64,000 nucleotides of DNA from Rhizobium sp. N324 (lineage in GTDB: Bacteria > Pseudomonadota > Alphaproteobacteria > Rhizobiales > Rhizobiaceae), in assembly GCF_001664485.1 (NCBI RefSeq), contig NZ_CP013634.1, positions 440,142 through 504,141 of the forward strand, in the 5' to 3' direction. The notes under the pieces were generated by a model, which was given only the letters and a program-made list of their open reading frames with translations, searched no databases and had not been told where the DNA came from. The first letter of the stretch is position 1. Every line of letters starts with the position of its first letter. A program made the position numbers and the translations under genes. Positions 14,873 to 32,275 of the stretch are shown here, piece by piece.

Positions 14873-17284
14873 TCAGCGCAATTCGGCGGTGACCCGGAAG
14901 ATGCCGCCGGCCGAGGCGTCGGAGCAGACGACGAAGGTCGAGCCTTCCTGCGCCATGAACGCGACGTTGCCGCCGGCTTCGCAGGGGGTGGCGCTCCATT
15001 GCAGGAGGATGTCGCCATTATCGGGCAGTTTTTCCGGTTCCATCTTTGTCGCGCTGGCCATCCATTCGGTTGCCGACGGCAGGTGGACGGGGGCGTTCAG
15101 CTGTTTCGACAGCCAGGCGGTGTAGTTCTGCGCTACGGCCAGCGGCACGTCGTCGGCCGGCAGCTGCGGGTTGTCGGCATAGGCCTGTGCAGAGGCGGGA
15201 TCTGAATTGGCGGTGTAATAGGCCGCCATCTCGGCGCGGGTGACGGCCTTTGCCTGCATGCAGAAGGATTTTTCGACCTTCACGGCGCCATTGGCGACGC
15301 CGAGCATGCCGCCGAGCTCCTTCATCGAGGCGGTCATCAGCCGGACATTCTCCAGCGAATAACTGCCCGCCGGCACGGTCTCGAAGGCAAGGGTCGGCGA
15401 AACCGGGCAGAAGCCGCGCGCCGACAGCGCCTCGAGATCGGCAAGGATCGGTTTGTACGCCACGACGGCGAGCTTATAGGCCTCCGCGCTATAGCGGCCA
15501 TCGGCCTCGCCGATCTTCGGCGTGAGTGCGGCAAGCGTCGGATCGGCGGCACCGGCGCGCGTAGTGATCGAGGCGCTGAGATCGGCGACCTTCTGCTTCA
15601 GGCCCGTCGCCTCGTCCTTCGACGCCATGACGTCGGCGATGATGGCGTCGAAAAGTTTGGCGGCGTCGCCATAGCCTGAGGTCGCCGCCGGCATCTGCCA
15701 TTGCTCGGCCTTGGTTTTTGCCTCCGCCATCAGGCTGCTCGCCTTGGCGACGTCCGGACTATCGCCGGCGCCGATGCGGTTGACCGTTTCGCGCTTGGCC
15801 GCCGCATCCTTTTCCGCCGCCGTCAGCGCCGTCAGCGCCTTGGCGAGATCGTCGAAAGCGGTTTTCGATGCATCGTAATTTTCGACGGCGCCGTGCATCT
15901 GCTTGGCGGCGGCGCTGTCGGCGGCGGTCTTCATCCTGGCGTCGGCCTCGGCGAAGCTCGGCGCCTTGTCGCCGCCGGCGGCCGAAGCCGACGCTTTCGC
16001 CTTCTCGGCATTCTCCTTCGAAATGGCGATCAGCGCATTGCCGAGATTGATGGCGGCAGACTGATAGCCCGGAAGGGCTTTTTCATAATCTTCGTCCTTG
16101 AGCAGCGCATCGGCGGAGGTCAGCGCTGCCGCACCGGTGTCATAGGAAAGCTTGGCCTGGTCGCTGGCCGGGCGCTCCGGCGCCTTGGCGGCGATCGCCT
16201 TCTGCTTTCGGCTTTCGGCCTCCTTCTTCCAGGTGCCGACATCGGCGACGAGTTTCGGATCCGGGCGCAGAAGTTTCGGAATGGTGATGGCGCCGACGCC
16301 GATGCAGATCAACAGCAGCGCTGCGATCATCGAGATTTTGACGGGCGTCCACTTTTTCGGTTTCGCCGCCTCCGGCTGCTGCGGCATGCCGCCGCGCGGA
16401 TCCCAGGACATCGGCTGGATGCCCGTGGTCACCCTGGAGTATTCTCCGAGCGCATCGGCGCCGGTGCGCGGGCGCTGGGCCGGGTCGCGGCTCAGCATCC
16501 GTTCCACAAGGCTGGCGAGGCCTTCGGGAAAGCCGGGGATCAGCACGTCGAGGCGGGGAAAGACGTTGGAGGGATCGAGATGGATGTTCTTCCAGCTCTG
16601 CTCGCGCTGATGCTCGTCCTCCCAGACCATGACGCTGTCGAAGACGCTGTTATAGGTCTGGCGCGGCAGGAAGAGCTTGTAGGCGATCATGCCCATGGCG
16701 TAGATGTCGAGGGCGGCTGAAGCCGAGAAGGTGCCGCTGGCATAAATCTCCGGCGCGCCGAATTCCGGCACATAAGGCGGAATGATGTGCTCGCCGATCT
16801 TCGAGATCAGATGCAGATTGCCGATCCGGACCGACAGGCCGGAATAATCCTCGGAGACGTAGATGCATTGATCCGTCAGCGCATTGTGGGCGTAACCGGC
16901 GCCGTGCAGCGTCGCCAGGCCTTCGAGGATGTGGCGGCCGATCTCGGCGGCGCGCTCATAGGCCACCATCTCGGTTTCGTCGAGATACTGGTGCAGCGTT
17001 TTCGACGGCCGCTTTTCGACGATGTAGAAATTGTCGTCTTCCGGCGACGGCGGGATCAGGTCCTCGATTTCGACGAAGCGGCGGGCGGTCAGCGATTTCG
17101 CCTCGTTGATGGAGGTCCAGACCCGCTCGAAACGCGCCTTATCCAATTTCAGCGCCACATCGGGGGCGACGATGAAGACCGCATGGCCCATCCGCTTGTC
17201 CTCAGCGGGATAGACGATGAACTCGTTCTCATAGACCGGCTCGCCGATCGTGTAGCGGGCGATCAGATCACTTCTCATGCACAT
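14873..17284 (-). CDS. Membrane pseudokinase with FGE-sulfatase-like C-terminus
   Basis: About 803 residues from the ATG at 17284 (AGGGGG just upstream). Residues 1-280 have a protein kinase fold: VALK keeps the ATP-site Lys, and GAPEIYA (APE) and RDPAQRPR are intact, but the HRD loop reads HNALTDQ and the DFG position reads GNL, so phosphotransfer is unlikely. One membrane segment (ISMIAALLLICIGVGAITI) is near 315-336. An Ala/Lys-rich helical region follows, and the last 190 residues resemble formylglycine-generating-enzyme-like domains (FETVPAGSY, VTRAEMAAYY, HLPSATEWMAS). Topology would place kinase fold in the cytosol and the rest outside. It lies 143 bases after the serpin gene. Confidence 0.8.
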   Translation of the reverse strand: MCMRSDLIARYTIGEPVYENEFIVYPAEDKRMGHAVFIVAPDVALKLDKARFERVWTSINEAKSLTARRFVEIEDLIPPSPEDDNFYIVEKRPSKTLHQYLDETEMVAYERAAEIGRHILEGLATLHGAGYAHNALTDQCIYVSEDYSGLSVRIGNLHLISKIGEHIIPPYVPEFGAPEIYASGTFSASAALDIYAMGMIAYKLFLPRQTYNSVFDSVMVWEDEHQREQSWKNIHLDPSNVFPRLDVLIPGFPEGLASLVERMLSRDPAQRPRTGADALGEYSRVTTGIQPMSWDPRGGMPQQPEAAKPKKWTPVKISMIAALLLICIGVGAITIPKLLRPDPKLVADVGTWKKEAESRKQKAIAAKAPERPASDQAKLSYDTGAAALTSADALLKDEDYEKALPGYQSAAINLGNALIAISKENAEKAKASASAAGGDKAPSFAEADARMKTAADSAAAKQMHGAVENYDASKTAFDDLAKALTALTAAEKDAAAKRETVNRIGAGDSPDVAKASSLMAEAKTKAEQWQMPAATSGYGDAAKLFDAIIADVMASKDEATGLKQKVADLSASITTRAGAADPTLAALTPKIGEADGRYSAEAYKLAVVAYKPILADLEALSARGFCPVSPTLAFETVPAGSYSLENVRLMTASMKELGGMLGVANGAVKVEKSFCMQAKAVTRAEMAAYYTANSDPASAQAYADNPQLPADDVPLAVAQNYTAWLSKQLNAPVHLPSATEWMASATKMEPEKLPDNGDILLQWSATPCEAGGNVAFMAQEGSTFVVCSDASAGGIFRVTAELR

Positions 17285-17335
17285 GTCCCCCTGCAATCAT
17301 TGGCATTCCATGAAACCGAATTCTATTCGCCCGCC

Positions 17336-17381
17336 AGAGCATGATGCCGAAAAATGTGAGCGGTTTTCGGCATCATGCTCT
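17336..17381. repeat. Long hairpin repeat AGAGCATGATGCCGAAAA
   Basis: AGAGCATGATGCCGAAAA at the left and TTTTCGGCATCATGCTCT at the right are complementary over 18 bases with a 10-base loop. It resembles abundant rhizobial palindromes and could also terminate transcription after the serpin gene. Confidence 0.75.
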
Positions 17382-17395: not shown

Positions 17396-17443
17396 GAACA
17401 GGATTCAGATTTCAGGCCGAGAGGCCTTCAATCATCCTGTTCT
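17396..17443. repeat. AGAACAGGAT palindromic repeat overlapping serpin end
   Basis: AGAACAGGAT and ATCCTGTTCT are exact complements around a GGCC-containing middle. A related copy lies at 42486-42535. The serpin stop codon (17428-17430) is inside it, so the repeat encodes the last few serpin residues. Confidence 0.75.
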
Positions 17444-18612
17444 AGTAGCGGATCGCCGATCAGGCCGGCGGCCAGCACCAGGCCGGTCCTTGTATCCCTG
17501 AGCGCGAAGGCAAAGCGGGCATTGGCGACGACGCGAACGAGCTTGGGATCGATGCTGCGTTCCGTGATCGCTGCCGTGGCAGCTGCTGCCTCCGTGCCGT
17601 TTTCGTCAACCTTGATCATCGTCTTCTGAAGAACGCGCGACAAGCGAATGTTTTCCTTGGTGAAACCCGGGAAGGCCGAATGCTTGGCCTTTTCGGGTGT
17701 CAGTCCGATCGCGTTCAGCACCGGCATCAAATCACGCCCGTCGCTGAGGGAAAAGCGGGGCAGGAAGATTTCGCCCTTGACCGCCTCGAATTTTTCCCCC
17801 TGCAGCCAGGAGGCGAGCGCCTTCAGATCCGCGCCGCCAACGCCCTTGCCGGAGCGCGCGGCGATCACCACCATGCTGTAGCTCTCGTCCGTATAGGCAA
17901 GGTCGACGGCGGTGAATTTCTCGTCGACACGGAATTTCTGTCCGTCGCCTGTGAGATGCATCATCGGCACCGAAACCGTCGAACCGTCCGGCCGCTGAAA
18001 GGGGCTTGCCGGGCTTTCCCTGTCGAAAGACGTTTTCCAGCGCGCCTTGAAGGACAGCGCGCCGAGGCTGACGAAACCGCCGCCCGGCGGCGCGTCCAGC
18101 ATGACGGGAATGGCGCCGCGCGTCGTCTCCTTGACCCAGAGGTTGATATGCTCGACCGACCCAGGTCCGTCGAGATCCTCGATCGAGGGTTTGACCCGGT
18201 GGCTGGCGAGCATGGAAAGCGCGTCGGGAGCGAGCATCAGCTTGTCGTCGAAGATGATGGCAACCGCGCTCGCCAAAGGCGCATCCGCGGCTGCCGGCTT
18301 TTCCGGCGTCATGGCGGCAAGCACCGTCTCCGGCCCCTTCACCTCGCCGCCGAAGCCGAGGCCCTTGGCGATCGCGGCCTTGCCTTCGGCGGAGGCGCCG
18401 AGGCTGGCAAGGCCGAGGGCTGCGGCAAGGCTTGCCGGCGACACCATGATATTGGCAGCACCCTCCTTTGCCAGCGTGCGGCCGAGCAGTTCGGCGGCAA
18501 GCCCGGCCTGGGCTGAAAGCATCGATTTGCCGTCGCCGGCGTTGTCGGCATGGGCTGAGGCAAGCGTCAGCAGGGAAACGGCAAGGCCCGCCAGCAGAGT
18601 GGATTTCGGCAT
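17428..18612 (-). CDS. Secreted serpin-family protease inhibitor
   Basis: A 394-residue protein with a signal peptide (LLAGLAVSLLTLASAHA, cleavage near residue 22). The serpin core is clear: NIMVSPASLAAALGLASLGA, then FVSLGALSFKARWKTSFD, then the hinge VDENGTEAAAATAA and NARFAFALRDTRTGLVLAAG at the C-terminus. The hinge has the small residues needed for loop insertion, so it may be inhibitory. Counting from the hinge puts the scissile bond around ITERSID, close to an Arg, which would suit a trypsin target. It is 13 bases after the trypsin-caspase gene in the same operon. Confidence 0.85.
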   Translation of the reverse strand: MPKSTLLAGLAVSLLTLASAHADNAGDGKSMLSAQAGLAAELLGRTLAKEGAANIMVSPASLAAALGLASLGASAEGKAAIAKGLGFGGEVKGPETVLAAMTPEKPAAADAPLASAVAIIFDDKLMLAPDALSMLASHRVKPSIEDLDGPGSVEHINLWVKETTRGAIPVMLDAPPGGGFVSLGALSFKARWKTSFDRESPASPFQRPDGSTVSVPMMHLTGDGQKFRVDEKFTAVDLAYTDESYSMVVIAARSGKGVGGADLKALASWLQGEKFEAVKGEIFLPRFSLSDGRDLMPVLNAIGLTPEKAKHSAFPGFTKENIRLSRVLQKTMIKVDENGTEAAAATAAITERSIDPKLVRVVANARFAFALRDTRTGLVLAAGLIGDPLLEQDD

Positions 18613-18625: not shown

Positions 18626-21181
18626 TCAGCGGATGCGATAGAATTTGGAATCGAACGACCACTTGCCCTGGGCGCCGGTCTCGTCGTCGCCGACGATCCT
18701 TAAAGTGCGGGCGAGATCGTAGACATAGTTGAAGGCGGCGCGCTGGCCGACCAGCGGCGTCGGCACGTCCGGCAGGTCGAGCACCTCGATCGGCTTGTCG
18801 CTGAGAATGGCGACGACCATGCCGACGCCGGCCGGCCCCTCCACCACATATTCGAAGCCGGTATAGGGATTGCGCGCATCCGGCACGACGACCGGCCGGG
18901 TGGGATCGAGCCGGTTGTCGCCGCTCTTGGCGGTCGGTTTCAGCCCCATCGAGCGCTTGTTCGGGTAAAGTTGGGTCAGTTTGCCGGAGGCGTCGATATC
19001 GACCAGGATCAGGTAGCCTGATTTTTTGGTCGACACCCGCATCGCCACCTTGTCGCCGATGCCGACCGAGGTGCCGGGCAGCACATCGACGGCGACACCC
19101 GCCTCATTGTCCGTCTTCAGCGTGTTCTCGACGGCGGCGACCGGGGTTTTCGCCTCCTCGCCGGTGATGACATCGCGGCCGAGCGCATCCGGCTGGCCGT
19201 AGAATTGCGGCACCGGCGTGAAGCGGCAATCCTCAGCATGCGTCCGGCAATATTCGTCGGATTTGCGTCTGACATAATCGAGCAGGGCGGCATTGCTGAT
19301 AGTCGGCTTGTCGGCGGCGCGCGCCACGCCATCCTGTACACCTTCGATGAAGCGGCGGGTGAAGACGCCGACCGGCGGCTTGGCCTCGCGGTCGACCAGC
19401 GCCCACTGGCCTGAATTGACGGCCGACCAGACCATGGCGTTTTCGCCGCCGAAGGAGAATTTCGCCTCCTTGCCCGATTTGTTCGGCGTTTCGAGTGCTG
19501 CCAGCGCCGGACCGAGGCAACGCACGTTGCCGCCGCTTGGTGCCGCCACCGCGCTGCGGCTGCCGGGCCCGACATGGCAGGCATCGATCAGCAGCGTAAC
19601 GCGGCGGTCCTTGAGGCTGTTCAGCCGTGCGGCGATCTCCGTCTCGCGGATCTGGTTGGTGACCGTCAGCTTGCCGGCCTCGCGCATCAGCTTGGCGTCG
19701 GCTGCGACAAGCGTCGGGCTGGTTGTTTCCTCGGCGCCCATTTCCTCTGAACCTTGGCCGCTGAAATAGAGGAAGACCCGGCTGCCGGGCGTCGACTGGC
19801 GTACCAGCCAGTCGTCGATTTCCGCAAGGATCGCCTCGCGGCTCGCCTTGCGGTTGGTCAGCGTGTGGATCTGTTCCGGGCGGTAGGCGAGCGTCTTCAC
19901 CAGGAAGAGCTGCATCGCCTTGACGTCGCTGGCGGAGCCGGTGAGTTTTGCCTCGCGCATCTCGTAATCGTCGATGCCGATCAGCAGCGCGCGATCGCCG
20001 GGAGAGCTTTGGATGCCGGGTGTTTGGCCATCGGGGACCTGGACAGTGGGCGTCTTGATGGCGGGCGGCTGGATGGTGGGTTCCCCGGCGGCAGGCTTGT
20101 CAGCCGGCGCGGGTTCGACGGCTGATGCGTCGGGTGTTTGGCTCGTGGCGGCAGGGGCGGTATCGCCGGCGGGCGGGGTGGTGATGGCGAGATTGGCCAG
20201 TTTCTGGCCGGATTGCCTGAGCTTGGTCCCGGGAACGGTGGTGGTCGAGGCGACCTGATCGGCGGGCGGCATTTCGACATTCGGCACGTCGCCATCGGTC
20301 TTGGCGGCGATCCAGTCGCGGAAGGCGGCGACGCGGGTATAGACGCCGTAATGTTCGGCCTCGGCGCAGCCGGCACCCCAGCTGACGATGCCGAGCTGGA
20401 TCCAGCTTTTGTCGGAACGCTGGGCCACCAGCGGCCCGCCGCTGTCGCCCTGGCAGGCATCCTTGCCGCCTTCGGCATAACCGGCGCAGACATTGCGCTC
20501 GTCGATCGGGTTCATCCGCATCGAGCTGTCGCGATAGGCCGCACGGCAATCCTCACGCGGGACGATCGGCAGCTCGACTTCCTGCAGCTCGGTCGGCAGG
20601 TATTTGTCGTCCCAGCCGTGATCGGCCTTGGTGTAGCCCCAGCCGGTGACGACGGCCTTGTGGCCGGCCGCCTCCACCTCGTCATCGGAGGCCGAGGCGA
20701 GAATGGCCGGCCTGGAGACGGCGGGCTCGGCCAGCTTGATCAGGGCGATGTCGTTGGCAAAGACCTTGCGGTCGAAATCCTCGTGAATGACCACGTCTTC
20801 GACGGCAAGGCCGGGTTTATCCGGCCCGTCGACCGAGATCACCTTGTCGATCTTCGACTTGCCCTCGACGATCAGCAGGTCGCGGGCGAACAGATCCTGC
20901 TTGCCGGAGCGGCCGCTGGTGACGCAATGGGCGGCGGTCAATATCCAGCGCGGCGCGATCAGCGAGCCGCCGCAATGGCCGCCGAAGCGGCCGCGCTGTT
21001 CGGGATCGGGCGCCAGGATTTTCACCTGCCAGGGCCATTCGCCCTTCTTCGCCGCCTGGCCGCCGATCACACGGCCGCCATCCTCGCCGGCAAAATCGGT
21101 ATCCTGCTGCGTCAGCGCCGGCGCAGCCAGCAGCAGCACCACAGAGGCAATGGTGATGACCCTGCTGATCGACGCGCTCAT
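18626..21181 (-). CDS. Exported trypsin-like protease fused to caspase fold and DUF4384
   Basis: An 851-residue protein. A signal peptide occupies residues 1-25. An S1 trypsin domain follows (IGGQ near 39, LTAAHC His85, ANDIALIKL Asp144, CQGDSGGP Ser247), and Asp241, six residues before the Ser, predicts Arg/Lys specificity. After a Pro-rich linker (300-390) comes a caspase/C14 fold (ALLIGIDDYE at about 398) with Cys535 in LLIDACH but Gln476 where the catalytic His belongs (YFSGQGS). A DUF4384-like module (LTQLYPNKRS) ends the protein. Its start overlaps the stop of the caspase gene by four bases (ATGA). Confidence 0.87.
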   Translation of the reverse strand: MSASISRVITIASVVLLLAAPALTQQDTDFAGEDGGRVIGGQAAKKGEWPWQVKILAPDPEQRGRFGGHCGGSLIAPRWILTAAHCVTSGRSGKQDLFARDLLIVEGKSKIDKVISVDGPDKPGLAVEDVVIHEDFDRKVFANDIALIKLAEPAVSRPAILASASDDEVEAAGHKAVVTGWGYTKADHGWDDKYLPTELQEVELPIVPREDCRAAYRDSSMRMNPIDERNVCAGYAEGGKDACQGDSGGPLVAQRSDKSWIQLGIVSWGAGCAEAEHYGVYTRVAAFRDWIAAKTDGDVPNVEMPPADQVASTTTVPGTKLRQSGQKLANLAITTPPAGDTAPAATSQTPDASAVEPAPADKPAAGEPTIQPPAIKTPTVQVPDGQTPGIQSSPGDRALLIGIDDYEMREAKLTGSASDVKAMQLFLVKTLAYRPEQIHTLTNRKASREAILAEIDDWLVRQSTPGSRVFLYFSGQGSEEMGAEETTSPTLVAADAKLMREAGKLTVTNQIRETEIAARLNSLKDRRVTLLIDACHVGPGSRSAVAAPSGGNVRCLGPALAALETPNKSGKEAKFSFGGENAMVWSAVNSGQWALVDREAKPPVGVFTRRFIEGVQDGVARAADKPTISNAALLDYVRRKSDEYCRTHAEDCRFTPVPQFYGQPDALGRDVITGEEAKTPVAAVENTLKTDNEAGVAVDVLPGTSVGIGDKVAMRVSTKKSGYLILVDIDASGKLTQLYPNKRSMGLKPTAKSGDNRLDPTRPVVVPDARNPYTGFEYVVEGPAGVGMVVAILSDKPIEVLDLPDVPTPLVGQRAAFNYVYDLARTLRIVGDDETGAQGKWSFDSKFYRIR

Positions 21182-22794
21182 AGCTTGACTCCGGCGGAGG
21201 TATAGAGGACCGTAAATCCGACGCGGGCGCCCTTGGGCAGGACGTCGCCGAGCCGCCTGGCAATATTGCCGGCGGTGCGGCGCCTGTCGTTCTGCTTGAG
21301 GAACTCGACGAGCTCGGGCATCGGCTTTTCCGAGGTGACGGCGACGAGCAGATCGGTGCCGAAGGGGGCAACGACGGAGAGATCGAGATCGAAACTCGCC
21401 GACATCTCGGCATCGATCTCTTTCTCACCGGGATAGAGGAACTGCACGGTTCCATCGCCGGTGACGTCGAAGAGCACGAGCTTGCGGCCGGAGAGATCGG
21501 ATACCGCCACGCCGACACGCTCGCCCTCCCGATGGACGGTATCGGAGGGGGTGACGCGCACGGTCTGCGGGTTGGCCTCCGACAGCCGCTTCAGCGTGTC
21601 GAGCGCGGCCATCCGGTCGACGACGAACGGCATGTCGCCGGCGCCGATGCCGGAGGCGACGACATCGCCGCCGGCAACCGCCTCGCGTTTTTCCGGATCG
21701 AAGATCAGTTCGGCAGCGGCGGTTTCCGTCAGCTTGAACGGCGTGACGGCCGGGTCGATGCCCTGCAGCACCGGCTCGGCGCCGAGGGCGGCGACGCTGA
21801 TCGGCGCGGGCTCGACCGGCGGCGGCGTGGATGATTTCGCTGCTTCTGCCGTCGTTCCCGCCCCTTCGTAATTATAGACGACCGCGCGGTCGAGATCGGT
21901 TCCCGGCGGGCTTTCGGTGAAGATGTTCTGCCGCTGGTCGGTGAACTGGTAGACCGACTGGCGCACATATTCGAAGAGTTCGCGGCGGCTGACGGCGCCA
22001 TCGCCGTTGCGGTCGGCCGCCCCTTCGAAGGCGCGGGCGGTGGCATAGCTCAGCGCGCCGCGTTTCTGCGGGATGCCGGGAATGGAGATTTCAGGCGACT
22101 TGGTGTTGTCGTCGACGGCGGCGAGGAAGGTCAGCCGTTTGTAATCGAAGCCGGTGGAGAGCGCGTCCGCCGTCGTCGAGATCGGCGCGAGGTCGTCCTC
22201 CTCGATCGTATAGGAGGGCGCCTGGCGCCAGGTGATCTCGGCGCCGCGCGGATCGACATCGCGGGTCATGCCGCCGGCATGGCAGGTATCGGCGATGAAG
22301 AGCACATCGGCGCCCTTGGTCTCCAAGTTGCGGATCAGCACTTTGAACTCGTCGCCGAAGATGCGTTCGCGCGATCCGGGCAGCCTTGTGTCGAAGCCGG
22401 CGAGCACATAGACCTCGTCGCGGCCGCTCGGTTTCGAGCCCTTGACGCGCTCCGGCTCGCTCGAGCCATGGCCCGCGATGCCGAGCACGACGAGATCGCC
22501 GGCGCCAGCCCGTTCCGTCACGGCCTCGATCGCATGGAAGATGCCCTCGCGGTCGGCCTCGCCGTTCTTCAACAGCGTCATGTCTTCGACACCGACCGAA
22601 CGCAGCGACAGCGAAAGATCCTCGGCATCGGCGACGGCGCCGTGCAGCGGCGGAACGTTGCGGTAAAGATCGATGCCGATCAGCACCGCCCGGACGGCGC
22701 CGCGCTCCGGCGCCTCGATGGTTTTTGCCAGGGTCTCTGTCGCCGCCAGGCTGAGGAGGGCGAATGCGGCGGCCATGGAAACGGATGCGGACAT
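21178..22794 (-). CDS. Exported caspase-family protein with EF-hand loop and DUF4384
   Basis: About 538 residues from the ATG at 22794 (GGGGAG upstream; an in-frame TTG at 22800 is less likely). A signal peptide is followed by a C14 caspase fold (AVLIGIDLYRN) with His109 in IAGHGS and Cys171 in ADTCHAGG, so the dyad is intact. At about 261-272 lies a canonical EF-hand loop, DRNGDGAVSRRE. The C-terminal half carries a DUF4384-like module (GDGTVQFLYPGEKE). A calcium-dependent, periplasmic or secreted orthocaspase-like peptidase is the best reading. It lies between the OmpA-like and the trypsin-caspase genes. Confidence 0.85.
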   Translation of the reverse strand: MSASVSMAAAFALLSLAATETLAKTIEAPERGAVRAVLIGIDLYRNVPPLHGAVADAEDLSLSLRSVGVEDMTLLKNGEADREGIFHAIEAVTERAGAGDLVVLGIAGHGSSEPERVKGSKPSGRDEVYVLAGFDTRLPGSRERIFGDEFKVLIRNLETKGADVLFIADTCHAGGMTRDVDPRGAEITWRQAPSYTIEEDDLAPISTTADALSTGFDYKRLTFLAAVDDNTKSPEISIPGIPQKRGALSYATARAFEGAADRNGDGAVSRRELFEYVRQSVYQFTDQRQNIFTESPPGTDLDRAVVYNYEGAGTTAEAAKSSTPPPVEPAPISVAALGAEPVLQGIDPAVTPFKLTETAAAELIFDPEKREAVAGGDVVASGIGAGDMPFVVDRMAALDTLKRLSEANPQTVRVTPSDTVHREGERVGVAVSDLSGRKLVLFDVTGDGTVQFLYPGEKEIDAEMSASFDLDLSVVAPFGTDLLVAVTSEKPMPELVEFLKQNDRRRTAGNIARRLGDVLPKGARVGFTVLYTSAGVKL

Positions 22795-22816
22795 GGCCAA
22801 ACTCCCCTCGCCCCGG

Positions 22817-24748
22817 CTATTCGCGACGCCATTCGACGCGGCGGTTCAGCGCATCGACATCGTCTTCGGTGAGGTTTGCGGTTGCGGTCACGTCGACCGG
22901 CTCGGAGGCGCCGCGGCCTTCGGCATCGATCGACGCATCGATGCCGTGGCTCTTGAGGAAATCGGCCACCGCCTGGGCGCGGCGCTCGGAGAGCTTCTGA
23001 TTATAGTCGTCGCCGCCGCGCCGGTCGGTGTGGCCGATCAGGATGATGCGGCCGGGCTTCTGCTCCTTCAGCGCCTCCAGCAATTCCTCGGCCGCCTCGG
23101 TGCCGATCGAGGTGAAGCTCGACTTGTCGAAGTCGAAGGTGATCGGCACGGGAATGGAGACCGGCACGATGCCGCGGACATTTTCGGAATAGATGCCGCC
23201 GAGCACGCCGCTGCGGTGGTCTTTCTCGGCCGGGACGAAGCTGCCTTCAGGGTTGTCACTCGTCGGATTGGCGGCCAGGATGCGGGCCTGGGCGGCGCGC
23301 TGGATGAGATCGGAGATGGTGTCGGCCGGCGGCGCCTTCGGCGTGCGGGTCTCGTTCTTGATGATTTCGATCGCCTGCTGGTAATCGGCGGCGGCATCGG
23401 CAAAGCGGCGGGCGGAGAAATAGATCTCGCCGAGCGTGGCGGAGGCCTGCCAGAGCACCTGCGGGCTGTCGGCGGCGACCAGCAGCGGCTCGTAATCGGC
23501 GACCGGCTGGTTGGCGGCCATCATCTCCTGGGCGGCGGCAAGCCTGAGGGCCGCAACGCGGCGCTGGGCATTGACCTGGAACTGGCCGCATTCGGCGCTG
23601 ACGGCGATCGCATCGGCCTCGGACGCCGCCGCCGTGATATCCTTGGCGGCAACGGCGGTGTTCAGCTTGTCGAGAAGGGCAGTGCAGGCAGGCGTGTCGG
23701 CATTCGCGACTTCGATCTCTTCGCCGGCCTCGGGTTCGGCCGAGCGGCCGAGGTTGAGCTGCGGCATCTTGATGCTGAAGCCGCCTGGAAGTTTGAATTG
23801 CGGCATCTTCAGCTGCGGCATCGGCAGCTTCGGCATCTTCGCCTGGGAGGATTGGGCGGGCTGCTTATACTGGCTCGGTCGGGTGGAGGCGGTGGTGTCG
23901 GCGGGGCCGATCAGTTGCAGTTCATCGGCGGCAAGCTCCTGGCCGGGCGCCAGATTGGTGACGATCTTGTATTTCTTCGGCGGCTGCGTCGTCGCCTGCT
24001 CCACCGGTTTCGGCGTCACCTTTTTCGGGGCCACAGGCTTCGGTTTTTCCACGGCCGTGTCCGGCTTCTTGGCGACTTCCTGTTTGATCACCGGCTTCGG
24101 CTTCGGCTTCGGCGCAACCGGCGGCTTGGCCGCCTGTTCGATCGGTTTTGTGGCGGGAGCGGCTGCAACCGGCGGGGCTGCGGCGGGCGGCAGGGCCGCC
24201 GGGCTGTCGACCGTCGTCAGCATCAGCGTCTTACTGCTGATCTTGGTGCCGAGGCTGCGGGCCTCTTCCAGGCTGCGGGACACGGCATCCATGCCGCCGT
24301 CGATCGAGCGGAACATGCCGCTGCCGCTGCCGCCGAGATCGGCGAAGATGGTCAGCGGCTTGGATGAATAGAAGACCTTGATCTGCTCCTGGCCCACCGG
24401 GCCGGAGACCTGCAGCCGGGCGCCGCTGGCCGGATCCGGCACCTGCACGCGCTTGCCGGGGCCGACGAGGGCATCGGTCTGATATTTGTTCGGGAAAAGT
24501 TTGACGACGGAGCCGTTCGGCGAGACGTTGATCACCGTGACGTAGCTGTTCTCGGTCGACTGGATGAACAGGCCGACGACTTCGCCGATGGCGTATTTGG
24601 CCTCGGCGCGATCGAAGGTGATGCTGACGGGTCCGGTCTGGACCGGCGCTTCGGTCAGTGTGCGTTCGTTCTGCGCCTCGACGGCGGGAACCACCGCAAA
24701 GAACGAGAGAAAGGTGGCTGCGGCTAGGATGGCTTTGCGGTTCGACAT
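22817..24748 (-). CDS. DUF4384-OmpA envelope protein
   Basis: About 643 residues from the ATG at 24748, which follows GAGGAGG. A signal peptide (LAAATFLSFFAVVPAVEAQ) precedes a DUF4384-like module (ITFDRAEAKYAIGEVVGLFI, then GSVVKLFPNKYQ). A Pro/Lys/Ala-rich linker, about residues 185-300, could span the periplasm. A region of mixed helices follows, then a C-terminal OmpA domain (FDFDKSSFTSIG, ILIGHTDRRGGDDYN, LSERRAQAVADFLKSHGI), which binds peptidoglycan. It is the first gene of the operon with two caspases and the serpin and could anchor them at the cell wall. Confidence 0.87.
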   Translation of the reverse strand: MSNRKAILAAATFLSFFAVVPAVEAQNERTLTEAPVQTGPVSITFDRAEAKYAIGEVVGLFIQSTENSYVTVINVSPNGSVVKLFPNKYQTDALVGPGKRVQVPDPASGARLQVSGPVGQEQIKVFYSSKPLTIFADLGGSGSGMFRSIDGGMDAVSRSLEEARSLGTKISSKTLMLTTVDSPAALPPAAAPPVAAAPATKPIEQAAKPPVAPKPKPKPVIKQEVAKKPDTAVEKPKPVAPKKVTPKPVEQATTQPPKKYKIVTNLAPGQELAADELQLIGPADTTASTRPSQYKQPAQSSQAKMPKLPMPQLKMPQFKLPGGFSIKMPQLNLGRSAEPEAGEEIEVANADTPACTALLDKLNTAVAAKDITAAASEADAIAVSAECGQFQVNAQRRVAALRLAAAQEMMAANQPVADYEPLLVAADSPQVLWQASATLGEIYFSARRFADAAADYQQAIEIIKNETRTPKAPPADTISDLIQRAAQARILAANPTSDNPEGSFVPAEKDHRSGVLGGIYSENVRGIVPVSIPVPITFDFDKSSFTSIGTEAAEELLEALKEQKPGRIILIGHTDRRGGDDYNQKLSERRAQAVADFLKSHGIDASIDAEGRGASEPVDVTATANLTEDDVDALNRRVEWRRE

Positions 24749-24959: not shown

Positions 24960-25337
24960 TTAGTTCTTGGGTTTCTGCCCGGCTGATTTCAAAATCGAGA
25001 TCAGGTCGCTCATGCCCTCGGGCGAGGAATTGTAGAGCCAGAGAATATCCGGATTGTCGACCGTGAATTCCTTACCAAGGCCCGAGCCCATGTCGCGGCC
25101 TGGCGAGGTCTCGTCTGGCAGCTTGTCCTTTCCCGGCGTCAGCCCCTTGGCTTGTTCATGTTCGGCGATGAGTGCGGCGGCAGCAGCAAAGGCCTTTTCG
25201 TCATGCTGGCGGAGCGCCGCCAGCGAGGGGTTGCGGGCCGCCAGCGCGTCTTCCATCGGGCCGGCATGAGCAAGCTGAGACACGTGCAGCGCCAGCAGCA
25301 GGCCGATCGACAGGGGTATGAGCCGGGATTTCGTCAT
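24960..25337 (-). CDS. Small secreted protein, unknown
   Basis: About 125 residues from the ATG at 25337. A signal peptide (LIPLSIGLLLALHVSQLAHA) is followed by a charged helical body (EDALAARNPSLAALRQHDEKA), a segment LPDETSPGRDMGSGLGKEF and the end DILWLYNSSPEGMSDLISIL. No family recognised. It lies upstream of the OmpA-caspase operon in the same direction, about 210 bases away, and is probably another exported part of this region. Confidence 0.65.
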   Translation of the reverse strand: MTKSRLIPLSIGLLLALHVSQLAHAGPMEDALAARNPSLAALRQHDEKAFAAAAALIAEHEQAKGLTPGKDKLPDETSPGRDMGSGLGKEFTVDNPDILWLYNSSPEGMSDLISILKSAGQKPKN

Positions 25338-25493: not shown

Positions 25494-26084
25494 TCAGAGG
25501 ATCTTCAGTTGCTGCAGGCTAAGGCGGAGATCGCGCAGCATCTCGCCGAAGATCTCCTCGATCTTGCCCGTCGACCAGACGACCATGGTGCCATAGGGCG
25601 AGCGCTTGCGCTGCATGAAGCCCGCCGTCTCGAAATCGATCAGCGTCTTGCGGCAGGTCTCGCTCGACATCACCGCCACGAGGAACCGGGCGAGATTGGA
25701 CTGGTCGATGGCGCCTGATTTCTCCGCCCAGTTCTGGATCAGCCGCGGCTTGGTGTCGGCGGTAAACATCGAGGCGAGCGCGCGATCCTGCGACAGCCCG
25801 AGGCGCTGCAGCTTGGCCGGGTCGCGGGTCAGCGACACCACGTAATCATTGTGCAGATCGGCGAAGCGCTCGATATCCTCGGCCGCGCTGATGCCGAACA
25901 CCTTCATCGAATAGAGGAACTCGGCCATCAGATAGGTCGGCTCGGAGCGCAGCTGCGCCAGATGCTTGTCGTCGGCGCTTTGCGAGGCGGCGCAGACGCG
26001 ATCGGAGAAGCCGATCCTTGCGGCGCGCACCTGCTCCAGCAGGCTGATGTCGAGCGCCAGTTCGTCACCGTTCCATTCCAGCAT
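25494..26084 (-). CDS. Cytosolic protein, unknown
   Basis: About 196 residues if started at the ATG at 26084, six bases after GGGCAGGGA; ATGs at 26090 and 26117 are in frame. It has no signal peptide or membrane segment. Content is largely helical with a WNGDELALDISLLEQVRAA start and FLVAVMSSETCRKTLIDFE late. I do not recognise the family. It is the only gene without an export signal between the pseudokinase and the caspase-Sel1 gene apart from the membrane methyltransferase, and it is divergent from the propeller-NlpC/P60 gene, so it could be a regulator; that is inference. Confidence 0.65.
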   Translation of the reverse strand: MLEWNGDELALDISLLEQVRAARIGFSDRVCAASQSADDKHLAQLRSEPTYLMAEFLYSMKVFGISAAEDIERFADLHNDYVVSLTRDPAKLQRLGLSQDRALASMFTADTKPRLIQNWAEKSGAIDQSNLARFLVAVMSSETCRKTLIDFETAGFMQRKRSPYGTMVVWSTGKIEEIFGEMLRDLRLSLQQLKIL

Positions 26085-26264
26085 AAGCATTCCCTGCCCG
26101 CAAATCTTGGAGACCATGATCTTGTACTATTCCAGGCGCAGATCTCCAAATCGTTTGGAAAGCAACGGCTTGCTGACAAGGCGCATCTATCTTACCATTT
26201 CCAAGACTTGACGGTCATAGAGGGCCGAGCCGGCCTGACATCGTCCTGTTCGGGGGTCGAGGAC

Positions 26265-27869
26265 ATGCGTAGTCTTGGGTCGCATATTCTGATTGCCGCG
26301 GCACTTGCGGTCGCTTCGCCGGTTTTTGCCAAGGACACGACGATTATCGAGCTTCGTAGCGGCGATGGCGGCCGCTCGGTCGGCATCATTTCCGCCAGCG
26401 AGGAAGTCGAGGCATCGGGACCTGCGGCGATCACCGTCGGCGACGACGGCACCATCTATATTCTCGACCAGAACAACGGCCGCGTGCTCGCCATCGACGC
26501 CGAGCGCTCGCAGGCCGAGCCCCAAATCCTGCCTCTGCCGGAAAATGCGACCCCGGAAGATCTCGCCGTCGTCCACAACGAACTCTACCTCTGGTCTGAT
26601 GGTGTCGTGCCGCTCGAGCGTGCCACGGAAGCCGATGGAAGGTCGCAGACGCTGCGCGCCGTCGACGGCGGCGATGCCGACGATTACACCCGCTCGGTCT
26701 TCGCCTCGATGGGCTCGGTGCCGCCGGGGCCGCTGAACAGCATCGTCGACGAGATCGGCCGCAGCACCAGCCGACCGGCGGCCCGCCCGCCGGTCGTTCA
26801 ATATGTGCCGAGCCGCGGGCTCGGCGATATCGTCGCCGAGGTTTCGGCTGTAAATGACAAGGCCGAGATCCTGCTGCGGCGCAGCAGCTCGGAGGAGAAT
26901 TTCCTGTCGCTGCAGCTCACCGCCGAGGGCCGCATCGGCACCGTCGAACTTCTCGACATCGACACGACGGGCCGGCCCTATGCGCTGGTCGAGCTGGTGC
27001 CCGCCGATCAGCCGGAGCGCACCGGCATGCTGGTGGCGCGCTTCACGCCGAACGGGGTGGTGGACCGGATCTACGACCTGCCGATCGACCCCGGCACGGT
27101 GTTTTCCCGGCGTTTCGTGGCGATCGGCCCGCGCGGCGACGTGCTCTATCTCAAATCGCAGGAAAGCCGGGCGCAGGTGCTGCGGCTCGACGGCCGCGAT
27201 CCCGGCCGAAAACTCGCCGTCGCGCGGCCGGCAAAACCGCTCAATGCCGGCAAGCCCGGCAAGGCGCCGAAACTGGCGATCGTGCCGAAGTCGCGCAGCG
27301 ACGTCATCGAGCGGGCGATCGGCTTCGAAACCTTGAACTGGCTGGTGACGTCATCAGCCTATGGCAAGGATCCGGGCCCCGGCTGCATCAACATGAACCG
27401 GCTGCGCCGGCCGATCTATCTGATCGGCAAGCGCGGCCAGACGGTGAAGGGCGTTCCCTATTGCTGGGGCTGCAAGACCCGGCTCGAGGATTTCATGGAC
27501 GGCGTCGAAAAGGGCCAGACCGCCGGCAATGTCTGCACCAAGAGCGCGCCGCAAACCAACATCCTCGGTGTCGACTGCTCCGGCTTCGTCAGCGACGCCT
27601 GGGGCCTGAAGATGCATGTCTCGACGCGCGCCATCCCTGATATCACCAAACGCGTCTCCGACCCCTGGTCGATGCGGCCGGGCGACGCGCTGAACAAGCC
27701 GGGTTCGCATGTGCTCTTGTTCATGCGCTTCACCGACGACCGCAAGGTCGAGGTGATGGAGGCCTCGCCCAACGCCTGCAAGGGCCGCGTCTGCCGCAAC
27801 ACCTATTCACTCGGCAGCCTGCTGATGCGCGGCTATCAGCCGGTGCGTTTCAAGGGGCTGGATGGGTGA
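26265..27869 (+). CDS. Exported beta-propeller protein with NlpC/P60-like C-terminus
   Basis: About 534 residues. The ATG at 26265 opens a signal peptide (HILIAAALAVASPVFA). Residues 40-330 show repeated blade-like units (ITVGDDGTIYILDQNNGRVL, LLDIDTTGRPYALVELVP, FVAIGPRGDVLYLKSQ), as in NHL-like propellers. The last 170 residues contain VPYCWGCKTRL, the Cys of VDCSGFVSDAWGL and the His of KPGSHVLLF, matching the NlpC/P60 Cys-His arrangement. It may cut peptidoglycan peptides or related amides. It is the only plus-strand gene in this exported-protein region. In-frame sequence upstream of 26265 lies opposite the divergent gene and lacks a start signal. Confidence 0.78.
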   Translation: MRSLGSHILIAAALAVASPVFAKDTTIIELRSGDGGRSVGIISASEEVEASGPAAITVGDDGTIYILDQNNGRVLAIDAERSQAEPQILPLPENATPEDLAVVHNELYLWSDGVVPLERATEADGRSQTLRAVDGGDADDYTRSVFASMGSVPPGPLNSIVDEIGRSTSRPAARPPVVQYVPSRGLGDIVAEVSAVNDKAEILLRRSSSEENFLSLQLTAEGRIGTVELLDIDTTGRPYALVELVPADQPERTGMLVARFTPNGVVDRIYDLPIDPGTVFSRRFVAIGPRGDVLYLKSQESRAQVLRLDGRDPGRKLAVARPAKPLNAGKPGKAPKLAIVPKSRSDVIERAIGFETLNWLVTSSAYGKDPGPGCINMNRLRRPIYLIGKRGQTVKGVPYCWGCKTRLEDFMDGVEKGQTAGNVCTKSAPQTNILGVDCSGFVSDAWGLKMHVSTRAIPDITKRVSDPWSMRPGDALNKPGSHVLLFMRFTDDRKVEVMEASPNACKGRVCRNTYSLGSLLMRGYQPVRFKGLDG

Positions 27870-28100: not shown

Positions 28101-29318
28101 TCAGAGGCGTGGCGCTGTCGGCGCCAGACGCCGTTTCGCCATCGCCAGCAGTCCATTTGCGGCGACAGTCTCGGCATAGTCCCGATAGGCGGGATCCTGG
28201 CTCAGCATGCGCTCTTCGGCGCGGGCGCGCAGTAGATAGATCAGGCTGACGACCGCCAGCATGCCGGCCCGCGCCAGTCCTTCGGCAAGACCGCTGGCGA
28301 CGAAGCTCGGGGCCGCAAACAGCCACCAGGAGATGTTCTTGGAGAGATAGGCCGGATGTTTGACGAAGCGGTAGGGGCCCGAGGTGATGATGCCGCGATG
28401 GGTCAGGTTGGAAAATCGCGGCCCGAAGGCAATGGTCGCCCAGACGTAGATTATGGCGCAGGACAGCGTGGCAACGCTCCAGACGAAGTAGGCCACCGAT
28501 CCCTCCCGGATCACGCTTTCCCAACCCGGTCCGGCGCCATAGGGCACGAAGGCCTGTGAAATCGCCGGGAAGAACGGCTCGTAACAGATGAGGCACACGA
28601 GCCAGCCGAGCGCCGTTGTCTCCGTCGCCCTGACATGCCATCCGAACAGCTTGAAGGTGGCGATGTAGCCGCCGGCAGCCAGGATAACGTCGAGAAGGAA
28701 GACAAGGCGCAGCAAACCTTCGAACCAGGCGGCTGAAAATGCTGGAAACAGCCAGACCGGCCTTTCGGCAAGATCGGAAAGCGCCGCTATGCCGCTGGAA
28801 AACATCAGCACGAGGAAGAAGCATTTGATCGTCAGCAGGCGCAATGCGAACAGCACGTCTTCTTCGCGAAAATCCTGCATCAGCACCGCACGCCCGACCT
28901 GATGGAGATAATCATCGGGCTCCTCGGCGACGCGATCGGTGACCGCGACGTAGAGAATGGTGGCGCCGGCAAGGGCGATGGAGATGGGAATGGTTGTGTG
29001 GCGGGCCTCGATGAACCATTGGACCGCCGACGACTGCGTGAAAAACGGAAAGACGGAACAGGCAATGACGACCACACCCAAAAGCGCGGCGATGCCGACA
29101 AGCTTGGTTCCGATGCGCCGGCAATAAGCGGCGGGACACTCTTGCCGCCTCCCCCGCAATGCCCAGGCCCAGCGCGCAGCCGGTGTGCCGTCGACGACGA
29201 TCCACGCCGCGAGAAGACAGAGGACCGCAAGCGCCATCGCCTTGCCGGGCTCGAGCTCCAGATAGGTCGAGAGCGCAATGCCGACGACAACCCCAATAAG
29301 GGTCACAGCTTGAATCAC
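28101..29318 (-). CDS. Multi-pass membrane protein with ICMT/PEMT-type methyltransferase end
   Basis: A 405-residue protein with about ten hydrophobic segments. The C-terminal 130 residues match the isoprenylcysteine/phospholipid methyltransferase family: RGIITSGPYRFVKHPAYLSK for the conserved GPYR-hRHPxY motif and RARAEERMLSQDPAYRDYAE near the end, both part of the SAM site. The N-terminal 200 residues are extra membrane segments that I do not recognise. The substrate could be a lipid or a lipidated thiol; nothing here decides. It is 14 bases from the lipoprotein gene upstream. Confidence 0.78.
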   Translation of the reverse strand: MIQAVTLIGVVVGIALSTYLELEPGKAMALAVLCLLAAWIVVDGTPAARWAWALRGRRQECPAAYCRRIGTKLVGIAALLGVVVIACSVFPFFTQSSAVQWFIEARHTTIPISIALAGATILYVAVTDRVAEEPDDYLHQVGRAVLMQDFREEDVLFALRLLTIKCFFLVLMFSSGIAALSDLAERPVWLFPAFSAAWFEGLLRLVFLLDVILAAGGYIATFKLFGWHVRATETTALGWLVCLICYEPFFPAISQAFVPYGAGPGWESVIREGSVAYFVWSVATLSCAIIYVWATIAFGPRFSNLTHRGIITSGPYRFVKHPAYLSKNISWWLFAAPSFVASGLAEGLARAGMLAVVSLIYLLRARAEERMLSQDPAYRDYAETVAANGLLAMAKRRLAPTAPRL

Positions 29319-29692: not shown

Positions 29693-32275
29693 TCAGAAGA
29701 GATCGTACCTCGGATTTCGTTTTACCCATGTCGCCTTGGCGAGCTTGACGAGCCTGTCATCTATCGACTTGGATTTTGGAATTGCCTTTTGCTCCTGAGC
29801 TGTCAGCTCGGTGGCAAAGGCGGCTTCTGCGTTCTTCTTCGCGGCATTGGGCAGCCTCTTGAGTTCCGCCAAAGCCTGGTTCTTCGGATCGCCGCTGCCA
29901 GGCATGTTGATGGCGGTTGCCAGCGCAAAATAACGCGCCGCCGTCGTCAAGCCGTCAGCGCCGCTGCCTTCTTCCTTCGCCAGAATGGCGCGGTCGAGAG
30001 CCCCCCAATAGTCGCCGCGTTCGGCGCCTATCTCAAGCCACTTCACCGCTTCCGTCTTGTCTGCGGCAACGCCAACGCCGTCACGATACATGCGCCCGAG
30101 GTTCGTGGGAGCATGAGGCTGTCCGCCTTCTGCGGCCCGCGTGAAAAGGTCAAGTGCCTTTGTAAGATCCTGAGGGGCACCCTTTCCAAAGCGATAGACC
30201 AGGGCGAGATTGTTCAGGGAGTAGATGTCGTTGCGTTCAACGCCGGCCTCATAGAAACGAATACCGCGCTCGGGATCGGCTGGGACGTTTACGCCGTTCA
30301 GGAAAATATATCCGAGCTCGTTCATCGCATATGTATGGCCGAGGTCGGCGGCCTGCAGCATCATCCGCATGCCCTCTTGCTGATTGGCCTTGGTGCCACG
30401 GCCGTAGTAGAGAGCTTTGCCGTAGCTGTGCAGGGCGAACGGATCGCCCTTGGCGGCGCCACCTTTGGCGATCTCGCTGGCCTTGGCTGCATCGCGGGGA
30501 ACGGAGGCGCCGAACTCGTAAAGGCTCGACAATTCCTGAATCGCCCGGACATGCCCGGCATCCATCGCCTTCTTGATCGTCGCAAAAGCCGTCTTGGTGT
30601 CGCGATTGGCAAGTTGAGCGCGGCCGAGCTGGTAGACGAAGCGCGCCACCTCGGGATAGGCCATTATTGCTTCGGTGCACGCCGGCAGCGCCACGTTCGG
30701 GTCGATCTCGTTCGGGAGCTTGCCTGCGGTGACGCCCTGCAGGTCGAGGGGGGCGGCGGCGGATGTGTCGCAGGCGTCGAGCGTCGGCTTGAAGGTGACG
30801 GTCGCCGGCGCCAGGTCGTCATTGGCGGCTTGCAGCGTCAGGGCGAAAGGCTGGTTTTCGGTGCCGATCTGCGGCTCGTAGGAAAGGCCCGGAAGATCGG
30901 CGGCTTCAAGCACATGGCCGAGCCCGATCACCCGGTCTCCGGCGCGCAGCGTGCCCTTGTCGGGCAGGGCCGCGACCTTGAAGGTCATTTCGGCGGCCGA
31001 TGCCGGAACGACCGGCAGGCTGGCCGCGACGGGGCCGACACCGATCGTCGTGCCGACATCGCGCGGCAGCGTTTTCAGATAGGCATCGGCATCGGCAAGC
31101 CGCACTTGCTTTTGCTGTTCGAGCTGGGCGAGCTTGGCACCGGCATCCGCCGAGACGGTGATGGCGACGACGCCCTGTGTTGCCTGACCATAGGGATCGC
31201 TGACGGTATAGCCGATCAGGCCGACGGTGCCGGCGGTGACACCCGATGAATCATAGGTGAGCGCCGTCAGCGCCGCGGCCGGCATCTTGGCGCCCTGCTC
31301 GACCGGCTTGCCGTCGAAGCTGAGCTTGCCGGTCTGCGGCAGCTGGTTGAGGGTGACGAGCAGCGCCGAGCCGGTCTCGTCATGCGGCGGGGCGATCGTC
31401 AGCTTCGTGGCGGCGGCCCCTTCCGGCACGCTCACCTGCTGCATCGCCTCAACGCTCGGCGGCGGCGGCGCCGGAATGAAATAGAAGCTGTCCATCAGCG
31501 AGGAGTTTTCCCAGGGGACCTGCTTGCCGTTGGTCATGGCGATCACGTCGCGGCGCACATCGGTCAGCACCTGGCGGATTTCCTTGTTGGGTTCGCTGGC
31601 GCGTTTGATGAAGGATTCGGAATAGGGGCTGAGCGCACCGGTACCATCGAGCGCCACCTGGCCCGGTTCGGTGGAAAAGGCGATCAGGCTGCCGAGATCG
31701 CTGTCGATGCGGGCAAGGCCGCGGGTGGCGCCGACCGGCTCCAGTTTTTCCGCCATCCAGAATTTCTGGGCGTTGAAGGGATTGTTGCGGCAGGCATCGA
31801 GGAAGATCAGTTGCACCCGCGAATTCTGCTTGAGATGGTTGAGGATGAGGTCGAGCGGCATGGTCTGTGTCTCGACGTCATAGGGCGTCTCCAATGTCGC
31901 ATCGACCGGCACCAGGAAATTCTGCCCGCCCACCTGGATGCCGTGCCCCGAATAATAGATCAGGCCGGCCTCGGCATTGCTGGTCGAACGCAGGAACCGG
32001 CGCACCGTATCCTCGAGCCCGATGCGGTCGACATTGACGCCGATCGTCACGTCGAAACCGGCCGCGCGCAGCGTCGTCGCCACCTCTTCGACATCATTGG
32101 CGGGATTGGGAAGCGAGGGCAGCGTCTTATAGACCGAGTTGCCGATGACCAGCGCGACGCGGCGGCCGTTTTCCCCTTCCGTCACGGCGGCATATGCGGT
32201 GGCCGTCGACAGCAGTATTGCCGCGATGGTCAGCAGATAGGCGCAGAGTCTCCGGATGTGATGAAACTTCGGCAT
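29693..32275 (-). CDS. Exported caspase-family protein with Sel1-type repeats
   Basis: An 860-residue protein. The signal peptide (CAYLLTIAAILLSTATAYA) precedes a C14 caspase fold at 40-270 (VALVIGNSVYK, His111 in YYSGHG, Cys162 in LDACRNNPF), so the dyad is intact. Residues 275-520 look like beta-sandwich modules (LTYDSSGVTAGTVGLIGYTV, LSYEPQIGTENQPF). Sel1-like repeats follow from about 560 (LHSYGKALYYGRGTK, MNELGYIFLNGVNVPAD, LNNLALVYRFGKGAPQD, PTNLGRMYRDGVGVA). The architecture, caspase then protein-interaction repeats, is a signalling or scaffold type. It is the upstream gene of the lipoprotein and membrane methyltransferase genes. Confidence 0.87.
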   Translation of the reverse strand: MPKFHHIRRLCAYLLTIAAILLSTATAYAAVTEGENGRRVALVIGNSVYKTLPSLPNPANDVEEVATTLRAAGFDVTIGVNVDRIGLEDTVRRFLRSTSNAEAGLIYYSGHGIQVGGQNFLVPVDATLETPYDVETQTMPLDLILNHLKQNSRVQLIFLDACRNNPFNAQKFWMAEKLEPVGATRGLARIDSDLGSLIAFSTEPGQVALDGTGALSPYSESFIKRASEPNKEIRQVLTDVRRDVIAMTNGKQVPWENSSLMDSFYFIPAPPPPSVEAMQQVSVPEGAAATKLTIAPPHDETGSALLVTLNQLPQTGKLSFDGKPVEQGAKMPAAALTALTYDSSGVTAGTVGLIGYTVSDPYGQATQGVVAITVSADAGAKLAQLEQQKQVRLADADAYLKTLPRDVGTTIGVGPVAASLPVVPASAAEMTFKVAALPDKGTLRAGDRVIGLGHVLEAADLPGLSYEPQIGTENQPFALTLQAANDDLAPATVTFKPTLDACDTSAAAPLDLQGVTAGKLPNEIDPNVALPACTEAIMAYPEVARFVYQLGRAQLANRDTKTAFATIKKAMDAGHVRAIQELSSLYEFGASVPRDAAKASEIAKGGAAKGDPFALHSYGKALYYGRGTKANQQEGMRMMLQAADLGHTYAMNELGYIFLNGVNVPADPERGIRFYEAGVERNDIYSLNNLALVYRFGKGAPQDLTKALDLFTRAAEGGQPHAPTNLGRMYRDGVGVAADKTEAVKWLEIGAERGDYWGALDRAILAKEEGSGADGLTTAARYFALATAINMPGSGDPKNQALAELKRLPNAAKKNAEAAFATELTAQEQKAIPKSKSIDDRLVKLAKATWVKRNPRYDLF

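Follow-up and report, generated by a model that had tools for sequence, protein, structure and literature searches.

A conserved Rhizobium gene cluster encoding a trypsin-pseudo-caspase fusion, a partner caspase and a serpin with a matching loop: a candidate self-limited proteolytic module of the envelope

We analysed a stretch of 64,000 nucleotides (hereafter the window) from a Rhizobium strain belonging to the leguminosarum group, in which caspases, a trypsin and a serpin are encoded close together. The features of this cluster, with their positions in the window, are the following:

14873..17278, minus strand: pseudokinase, single-pass, with a weak C-terminal FGE-like domain (Pfam Pkinase 9e-12; hydropathy)
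17428..18612, minus strand: serpin with a predicted signal peptide (Pfam Serpin 2.7e-55)
17545..17604, minus strand: reactive-centre loop of the serpin, ENGTEAAAATAAITERSIDP, with P1 Arg352 and P1' Ser353 (placed by the hinge and Arg alignment)
18626..21181, minus strand: trypsin / pseudo-caspase (by motif) / DUF4384 fusion of 851 amino acids (Pfam)
21178..22800, minus strand: caspase C14 with the dyad His111/Cys173 intact (Pfam C14 8e-12)
22817..24748, minus strand: OmpA/DUF4384 wall-anchor protein with a predicted signal peptide; its gene heads the tight run (Pfam)
24960..25337, minus strand: small protein of no known family with a predicted signal peptide
25494..26117, minus strand: MarR-like winged-helix protein without an export signal
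26265..27869, plus strand: predicted exported protein with an NHL-like N-terminus and a DCSGF motif
28101..29318, minus strand: ICMT-like membrane methyltransferase
29693..32275, minus strand: predicted exported caspase with Sel1 repeats and an intact dyad (Pfam C14 1.1e-38, Sel1 2.3e-29)

The genes for OmpA/DUF4384, the caspase, trypsin-caspase-DUF4384 and the serpin are packed closely into one run on the minus strand: 16 bases separate the OmpA and caspase genes, the caspase and fusion genes overlap by 4 bases (a gap of -4) and 13 bases lie between the fusion and the serpin, in agreement with the close packing of four genes described in an earlier note on this DNA. A fourth gap, from serpin to pseudokinase, measures 149 bases. 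On the 5' side of the run lie the genes for the small signal-peptide protein and the MarR-like protein, the divergent NHL-like gene, the ICMT-like gene and the gene for the Sel1 caspase with its intact dyad. Neither promoters (2 against 3.2 in shuffled background) nor terminators (12 against 16.2) exceeded background in our scans. The genome (6.97 Mb) contains 3 C14 matches and all of them sit inside this one cluster, which argues against chance clustering. The nine genes examined are all under purifying selection. For the fusion, the best 120 homologues listed are 90-94% identical and belong to R. leguminosarum, R. ruizarguesonis, R. redzepovicii and their kin, several being marked as plasmid-borne; 183 plasmid records match positions 14800-32400, with at least 80% covered at one place in 82 of them.

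The domain order of the fusion is trypsin (20309-21070, Pfam 2e-54), C14 caspase (19142-19999, 7e-14) and DUF4384 (18791-19060, 1.6e-16), so the trypsin-caspase fusion announced in the earlier note stands and gains a third domain, for which no sequence relative was found in the PDB at E values up to 1. The trypsin domain has the S1A triad (H57, D102, S195), Asp189 and a zymogen activation site, Arg37|Val38 (R|VIGG, about 21071); it is predicted to cut after Arg/Lys, and among solved structures plasma kallikrein and coagulation factor XI come nearest to it in sequence. The triad, Asp189 and the Arg activation site (R|VIGG) are present in the window and in 26/26 Rhizobium loci, and the same residues were read in L057-L063, L069 and L089-L092 (L089 in two pieces); the activation site of L064 lies beyond the contig end, and L099 was left out of this reading. 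The trypsins of L105-L107 keep Asp189 and the serine motif, with the Arg activation site in L105 only. The caspase domain inside the fusion has Gln476/Cys instead of the His-Cys dyad and is, judged by this motif, a dead pseudo-caspase.

The partner caspase (21178-22800, starting at TTG 22800 or ATG 22794) and the Sel1 caspase (29693-32275) both carry His/Cys, as had been claimed of two intact caspases at this locus. A C14 type related to the Sel1 caspase is present near other clusters, and the Sel1 caspase probably belongs to the system. At the C-terminus of the partner caspase a DUF4384-like region was detected by our own iterated profile only and is absent from the Pfam result; we gave no weight to an hhalign test of this region, which was circular since each iterated profile had come to include members of the other. 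The fold model of the partner caspase, built on an alignment with only close relatives, is poor (pLDDT 37). The fusion-side and partner-side caspase domains fall on opposite sides of a 99/99 split in the caspase tree, so the pair is old.

We scanned caspase pairing in 28 loci plus the window, using 3 of the 26 Rhizobium loci and excluding WD40-caspases as partners. One partner is dead in 11 of the 20 paired loci, both are intact in 9 and both are dead in none. The dead partner belongs to the fusion in the window, L037, L043, L050, L057, L068 and L072, and is the non-fusion caspase in L090, L091, L092 and L099. Every one of the 26 Rhizobium loci combines a Gln/Cys fusion caspase with a His/Cys partner. 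Counter to a strict pairing rule, the six fusions of family f27 have a dead fused caspase with no paired-type partner in the stretch, and in 5/6 of these cases an intact caspase of another type is present. The tree implies 4 changes of state, at least 3 of them on well-supported branches. The dead caspase domain is still under purifying selection, with dN/dS of 0.09-0.13 against 0.34-0.67 for the linker in three comparisons. One fusion caspase from Chthonobacter (L058:7456-9915) carries His at a position occupied by Gln in the proteins closest to it in the tree; because this His sits inside a Gln clade, either a regain or repeated losses are possible. A separate type is represented by caspase proteins of about 1.2 thousand amino acids (L069:1918-5559, L105:10281-13925 and L065:239-3784), which consist of WD40 propellers and a C-terminal caspase in L069 and L105, L065 being grouped with them by the tree. 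These WD40-caspases fall on the side of the partner caspase 21178-22800, and the type is absent from the genome of the window, whose three C14 matches all lie in the cluster.

The serpin assignment of the earlier note was borne out by a full domain (PF00079, 2.7e-55, profile positions 2-370 of 370), with conserpin, miropin and PAI-1 as relatives in the PDB. Inhibitory serpins are recognised by a hinge of inhibitory type and a scissile bond in the reactive-centre loop. Here the hinge ENGTEAAAAT aligns to that of conserpin, the scissile bond is Arg352-Ser353, and Arg352 is invariant in an alignment of 7 cluster serpins. Among 120 listed homologues, P1 is Arg/Lys (scored at loop position 16 or 17) in 73/73 parsed cluster-type serpins against 7/43 parsed general serpins, where 1 and 3 sequences respectively were unparsed, the cut between the two types (P0304/P0305 of the ranked list) was chosen after the loops had been seen and the gene context is known for a minority of the proteins. 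The cluster serpins L105, L106, L107 and L108 have Arg at P1 and the solitary serpin L104 does not, but the solitary serpins L087, L097, L098 and L101 likewise have it, which counts against our main reading. P2-P1-P1' is E-R-S in 61/61 Rhizobium-type serpins, the window included. Conservation of the TERSI segment averages 0.98 against a serpin mean of 0.90 and 8% of five-residue windows are as conserved, so that the loop is only moderately unusual; its invariance gives moderate support to a fixed target. The P1-Arg loop would suit a trypsin with Asp189, and by sequence this match of protease and serpin is strong.

Next, we looked for the gene set in relatives. The 26 named Rhizobium loci come from one scan with the fusion protein, so the count of their order is conditional on the fusion; 26/26 show, in this order, the NHL protein (on the opposite strand), the MarR-like protein, the small protein, OmpA, caspase, fusion, serpin and pseudokinase. 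This eight-gene order is kept in R. lusitanum at 60-75% identity and in Chthonobacter rhizosphaerae (L058) at 46-65%, and in a second Chthonobacter locus (L057) it lacks the serpin. Serpins are rare in Alphaproteobacteria, with 9/385 genomes positive for PF00079. Three of the 8 other serpin genomes (G541, G427 and G633; Minwuia) have the tight order OmpA, caspase, trypsin/caspase/DUF4384, serpin, and the four-gene core with overlapping ends was found in 4 Minwuia genomes. A further one, G631, which belongs to another family, has OmpA-fusion-serpin; its partner-type caspase, truncated where the contig stops, is encoded on the opposite strand at a distance of about 4.6 kb. Beside the serpin of the other 4 of the 8, our profiles found no further cluster gene.

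Searches with the fusion show how far the serpin accompanies it. In the 385 genomes of the class a full-length fusion occurs in 5 (that of the window and 4 more) and the serpin adjoins it in 5/5, a search tilted to serpin-linked fusions because the profile included, besides the fusion of the window, three of the other four, which had come to light by way of their serpins. Of 347 order-level genomes, 62 gave any match, mostly to one part, and 10 contain whole fusions, of which 3 are adjoined by a serpin and 7 (G155 and six of family f27) have no neighbouring serpin. OmpA-caspase-caspase cores also exist without trypsin or serpin. The serpin is therefore a frequent but dispensable module, and the order OmpA, caspase, trypsin/caspase, serpin that the earlier note had wished to see in relatives is found in Rhizobium (26/26), Chthonobacter and Minwuia but not in these cores or in 7/10 order-level fusions, so that the envelope-system idea of the note withstands only in part its own refuting condition, independent occurrence of the genes in relatives.

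Further serpin searches covered the family of the window, that of Minwuia, the phylum and families f11, f44 and f27, and yielded five more cluster members (G874 with the four-gene order, G346, G249, G106 and G070) and the solitary serpins of G777, G863, G930, G1045, G981, G902 and G310. In some families the trypsin is unfused to a caspase, yet lies near serpin, OmpA and caspases: G106 and G070 have a trypsin-DUF4384 protein without fused caspase beside the serpin, with OmpA, caspase and MarR-like protein present, and G288 (Cohaesibacter) encodes its trypsin and its caspases individually, in the vicinity of serpin, OmpA and a MarR-like protein. Outside Rhizobium, 11/22 serpin genomes have the cluster in some form and 10/22 have a trypsin within 10 kb of the serpin, against 0.46 expected from trypsin counts, in a set that includes families searched because they bear the cluster; in draws not chosen for the cluster, with Rhizobium excluded, the proportion with it is 4/14. 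We conclude that the gene set is real, conserved and co-inherited. That these genes are chance neighbours on a plasmid is hardly credible: the ICMT gene behaves as a bystander and the outlying genes differ among loci, but Minwuia shows the identical four-gene order with overlapping ends, class-level fusions have an adjoining serpin in 5/5 cases, and the order in Minwuia and Chthonobacter largely refutes coincidence.

A different division of labour would be cross-class inhibition, in which the serpin mainly targets the partner orthocaspase, itself Arg-specific, and the trypsin acts downstream. Orthocaspases, defined as having p20 without p10, cleave after basic residues (PMC6426788, in part), so a P1 Arg suits the partner caspase too, and the trapping of metacaspase 9 by Arabidopsis Serpin1 offers a precedent (title of a reference cited in PMC10896300). 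In L108 (G346) a serpin adjoins a caspase, with a MarR-like gene and no trypsin or OmpA within 20 kb, providing a natural test of the caspase as serpin target. We nevertheless consider this alternative unlikely, since a trypsin lies within 10 kb of the serpin in 10/11 clusters outside Rhizobium and seven caspase loci (L065, L067, L068 and L070-L073) have neither trypsin nor serpin in the stretch fetched.

The OmpA anchor of the earlier note was upheld, with OmpA at the C-terminus (about 22877-23140, Pfam 3.4e-16) and, in addition, DUF4384 at the N-terminus (about 24356-24595, 3.4e-20); the gene is present in 26/26 Rhizobium loci. An outer-membrane protein, pRL110591, is reported to be specifically required for lentil root colonisation, in an experiment with pooled samples and no independent replicates (PMC11103875, in part). 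The L-fuconate dehydratase pRL110598 (PMC7105596, in part) corresponds to WP_011655321; the accession of the OmpA protein, WP_011655314, is smaller by seven. Because this offset of seven matches, and provided that the numbering is unbroken, the OmpA gene of the window is probably pRL110591, in which case lentil root colonisation would be a possible phenotype of the cluster.

The serpin might instead guard against outside proteases of plant, protozoan or predator origin, and the neighbouring proteases would be an unrelated secreted armoury. In favour of this, a protective role of prokaryotic serpins against proteases of the cell or of its surroundings is under discussion (PMC10090351 and PMC8233489, both in part), the OmpA gene is probably required on lentil roots, and fusions without serpin exist. 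Against this reading, which we regard as distinctly improbable, the P2-P1' residues are invariant rather than variable, and linkage to the cell's own trypsin, for which the bait residue is suited, recurs across several families.

Export was judged with our own heuristic on protein N-termini. It was positive for the fusion, the serpin, OmpA, the small protein 24960-25337, the NHL gene and the Sel1 caspase, and negative for the partner caspase, whose N-terminus is hydrophobic and has no basic residue. The near-universal export that had been claimed thus holds for six proteins and fails for caspase 21178-22800, by a test that is weak because 2/5 flanking cytosolic controls (clpP and an SDR) passed it falsely. 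The pseudokinase was confirmed as a kinase fold without catalytic motifs (HRD replaced by HNA and DFG lost, by alignment to MELK) and has a transmembrane segment at about 16280-16336, but the FGE domain named with it fell below the Pfam cut-off and was rejected. The NlpC/P60 label given to 26265-27869 could not be confirmed: Pfam has no such match, NCBIfam gives RipB at E=0.032 only and the DCSGF motif was picked by eye. The NHL-like gene occurs in 26/26 Rhizobium loci, L057 and L058, and the small protein 24960-25337 in the Rhizobium, G155 and Chthonobacter loci. The 25494-26117 protein has the predicted winged-helix fold of MarR-like proteins and probably controls expression of the cluster; such a protein accompanies most clusters and was not found in the four Minwuia stretches. 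The ICMT gene had no match in L032, L043, L046, L047 and L055, that is, in 5/25 Rhizobium loci able to show it (the contig of L052 ends before its position), and therefore looks unrelated to the system and is probably a bystander. The single envelope set of the earlier note is supported by the gene order in Rhizobium, Chthonobacter and Minwuia, the looser clusters elsewhere and the P1-Arg loop.

We also weighed an anti-phage or programmed cell-death module, similar to those CARD-NLR or gasdermin systems that include trypsins and caspases. Caspases and trypsins are known from such defence systems (PMC7159879 and PMC13236601, both in part), and the cluster is plasmid-borne in relatives and patchy. 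We judge this very unlikely, as the cluster proteins are predicted to be exported and a Pfam scan of 10 window proteins found no NTPase, gasdermin or TIR domain. PADLOC returned superfamily-level matches (caspase; the kinases MkoA, mad6 and PD-T4-6; the trypsin LmuA; MotB-type) without the core genes of a known anti-phage system, and that identification was rejected.

Starting from what can be read in the sequences (gene order, catalytic and activation residues, serpin loop, co-inheritance of the partner caspase and the predicted MarR-like fold), we propose, with slightly more than even confidence, an exported module for proteolytic control in the envelope that is limited by its own serpin. 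The trypsin would be produced in zymogen form, joined to the pseudo-caspase and DUF4384, and cleavage behind Arg37 (R|VIGG) would activate it; the cleaving enzyme would be the trypsin itself or the live partner caspase 21178-22800, which is of the Arg type and probably forms a pair with the pseudo-caspase. OmpA/DUF4384 would tether the set to peptidoglycan, and the co-made serpin would offer Arg352 as bait and trap the active trypsin, possibly the caspase too; protease activity would therefore be local and short-lived. The MarR-like protein probably governs expression. In this scheme we infer the order of cleavage, the pairing of the caspases, the anchoring through DUF4384 and the covalent inhibition. 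A bolder version, possible in our opinion and offered only tentatively, would be an envelope cascade of the blood-clotting kind, in which a live/dead caspase pair licenses the trypsin zymogen and a co-encoded serpin, whose true target is encoded alongside, ends the pulse, the caspase-pseudocaspase partnership having evolved repeatedly in bacteria.

In animal coagulation and kallikrein cascades, trypsin zymogens are under serpin control, and the window set resembles a bacterial counterpart of such regulation in animal blood and immunity. The window set has in common with them the Arg activation site, Asp189 and a P1-Arg serpin, but it is bacterial and includes a caspase-fold fusion and an OmpA gene, and the likeness is one of sequence, without sign of common descent as a system. 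The closest described protein is bacterial: Klemencic et al. 2019 reported trypsin / QC pseudo-orthocaspase / DUF4384 proteins of Alphaproteobacteria (PMC6426788, in part), with the same architecture and Gln-Cys dyad as the fusion. The section on that protein says nothing of a serpin, a partner caspase, an OmpA anchor, a regulator or an operon, and nowhere does the main text use the term serpin (0 occurrences). We found no account of the operon in a literature in which subscription journals were thinly covered, the fusion protein itself having been published in 2019. Archaeal serpins that act on endogenous proteases exist (PMC8233489, in part); they resemble the window serpin in its presumed role, but the presumed target here is a trypsin-caspase fusion encoded beside the serpin. 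In LypABC and CARD-NLR-like systems, too, trypsin-like peptidases of bacteria are part of a regulated set of several proteins, but LypABC has CARD-like and ATPase domains, for which the window proteins gave no Pfam match, and the window proteins look exported (PMC13236601, in part).

The targets of many prokaryotic serpins are elusive and endogenous ones little known, according to a 2023 paper (PMC10090351, in part). Here a P1-Arg serpin is encoded 13 bases from a trypsin zymogen, its candidate target, and the genus includes a legume symbiont that can be handled in the laboratory, which makes the question of the serpin target directly testable. The paired caspases, of which either partner has repeatedly died, provide a bacterial case for partnership between active and pseudo-caspases.

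Three further observations concern the flanks of the cluster. A ClpP paralogue (13680-14291, plus strand, PF00574, 2e-82) lies close to a pentapeptide-repeat gene and is probably outside the system, because it was matched in only 4/26 Rhizobium cluster loci (L031, L032, L052 and L054). On the minus strand, 37924-40028 holds a YcaO gene (PF02624) overlapping an adjacent TfuA-like gene (PF07812), a pair that we presume may serve peptide modification of the thioamide/azoline type. At 60434-61639 on the plus strand, near the end of the 504,141-base contig, a ParA/RepA-type ATPase is encoded, and relatives of the cluster reside on large plasmids.
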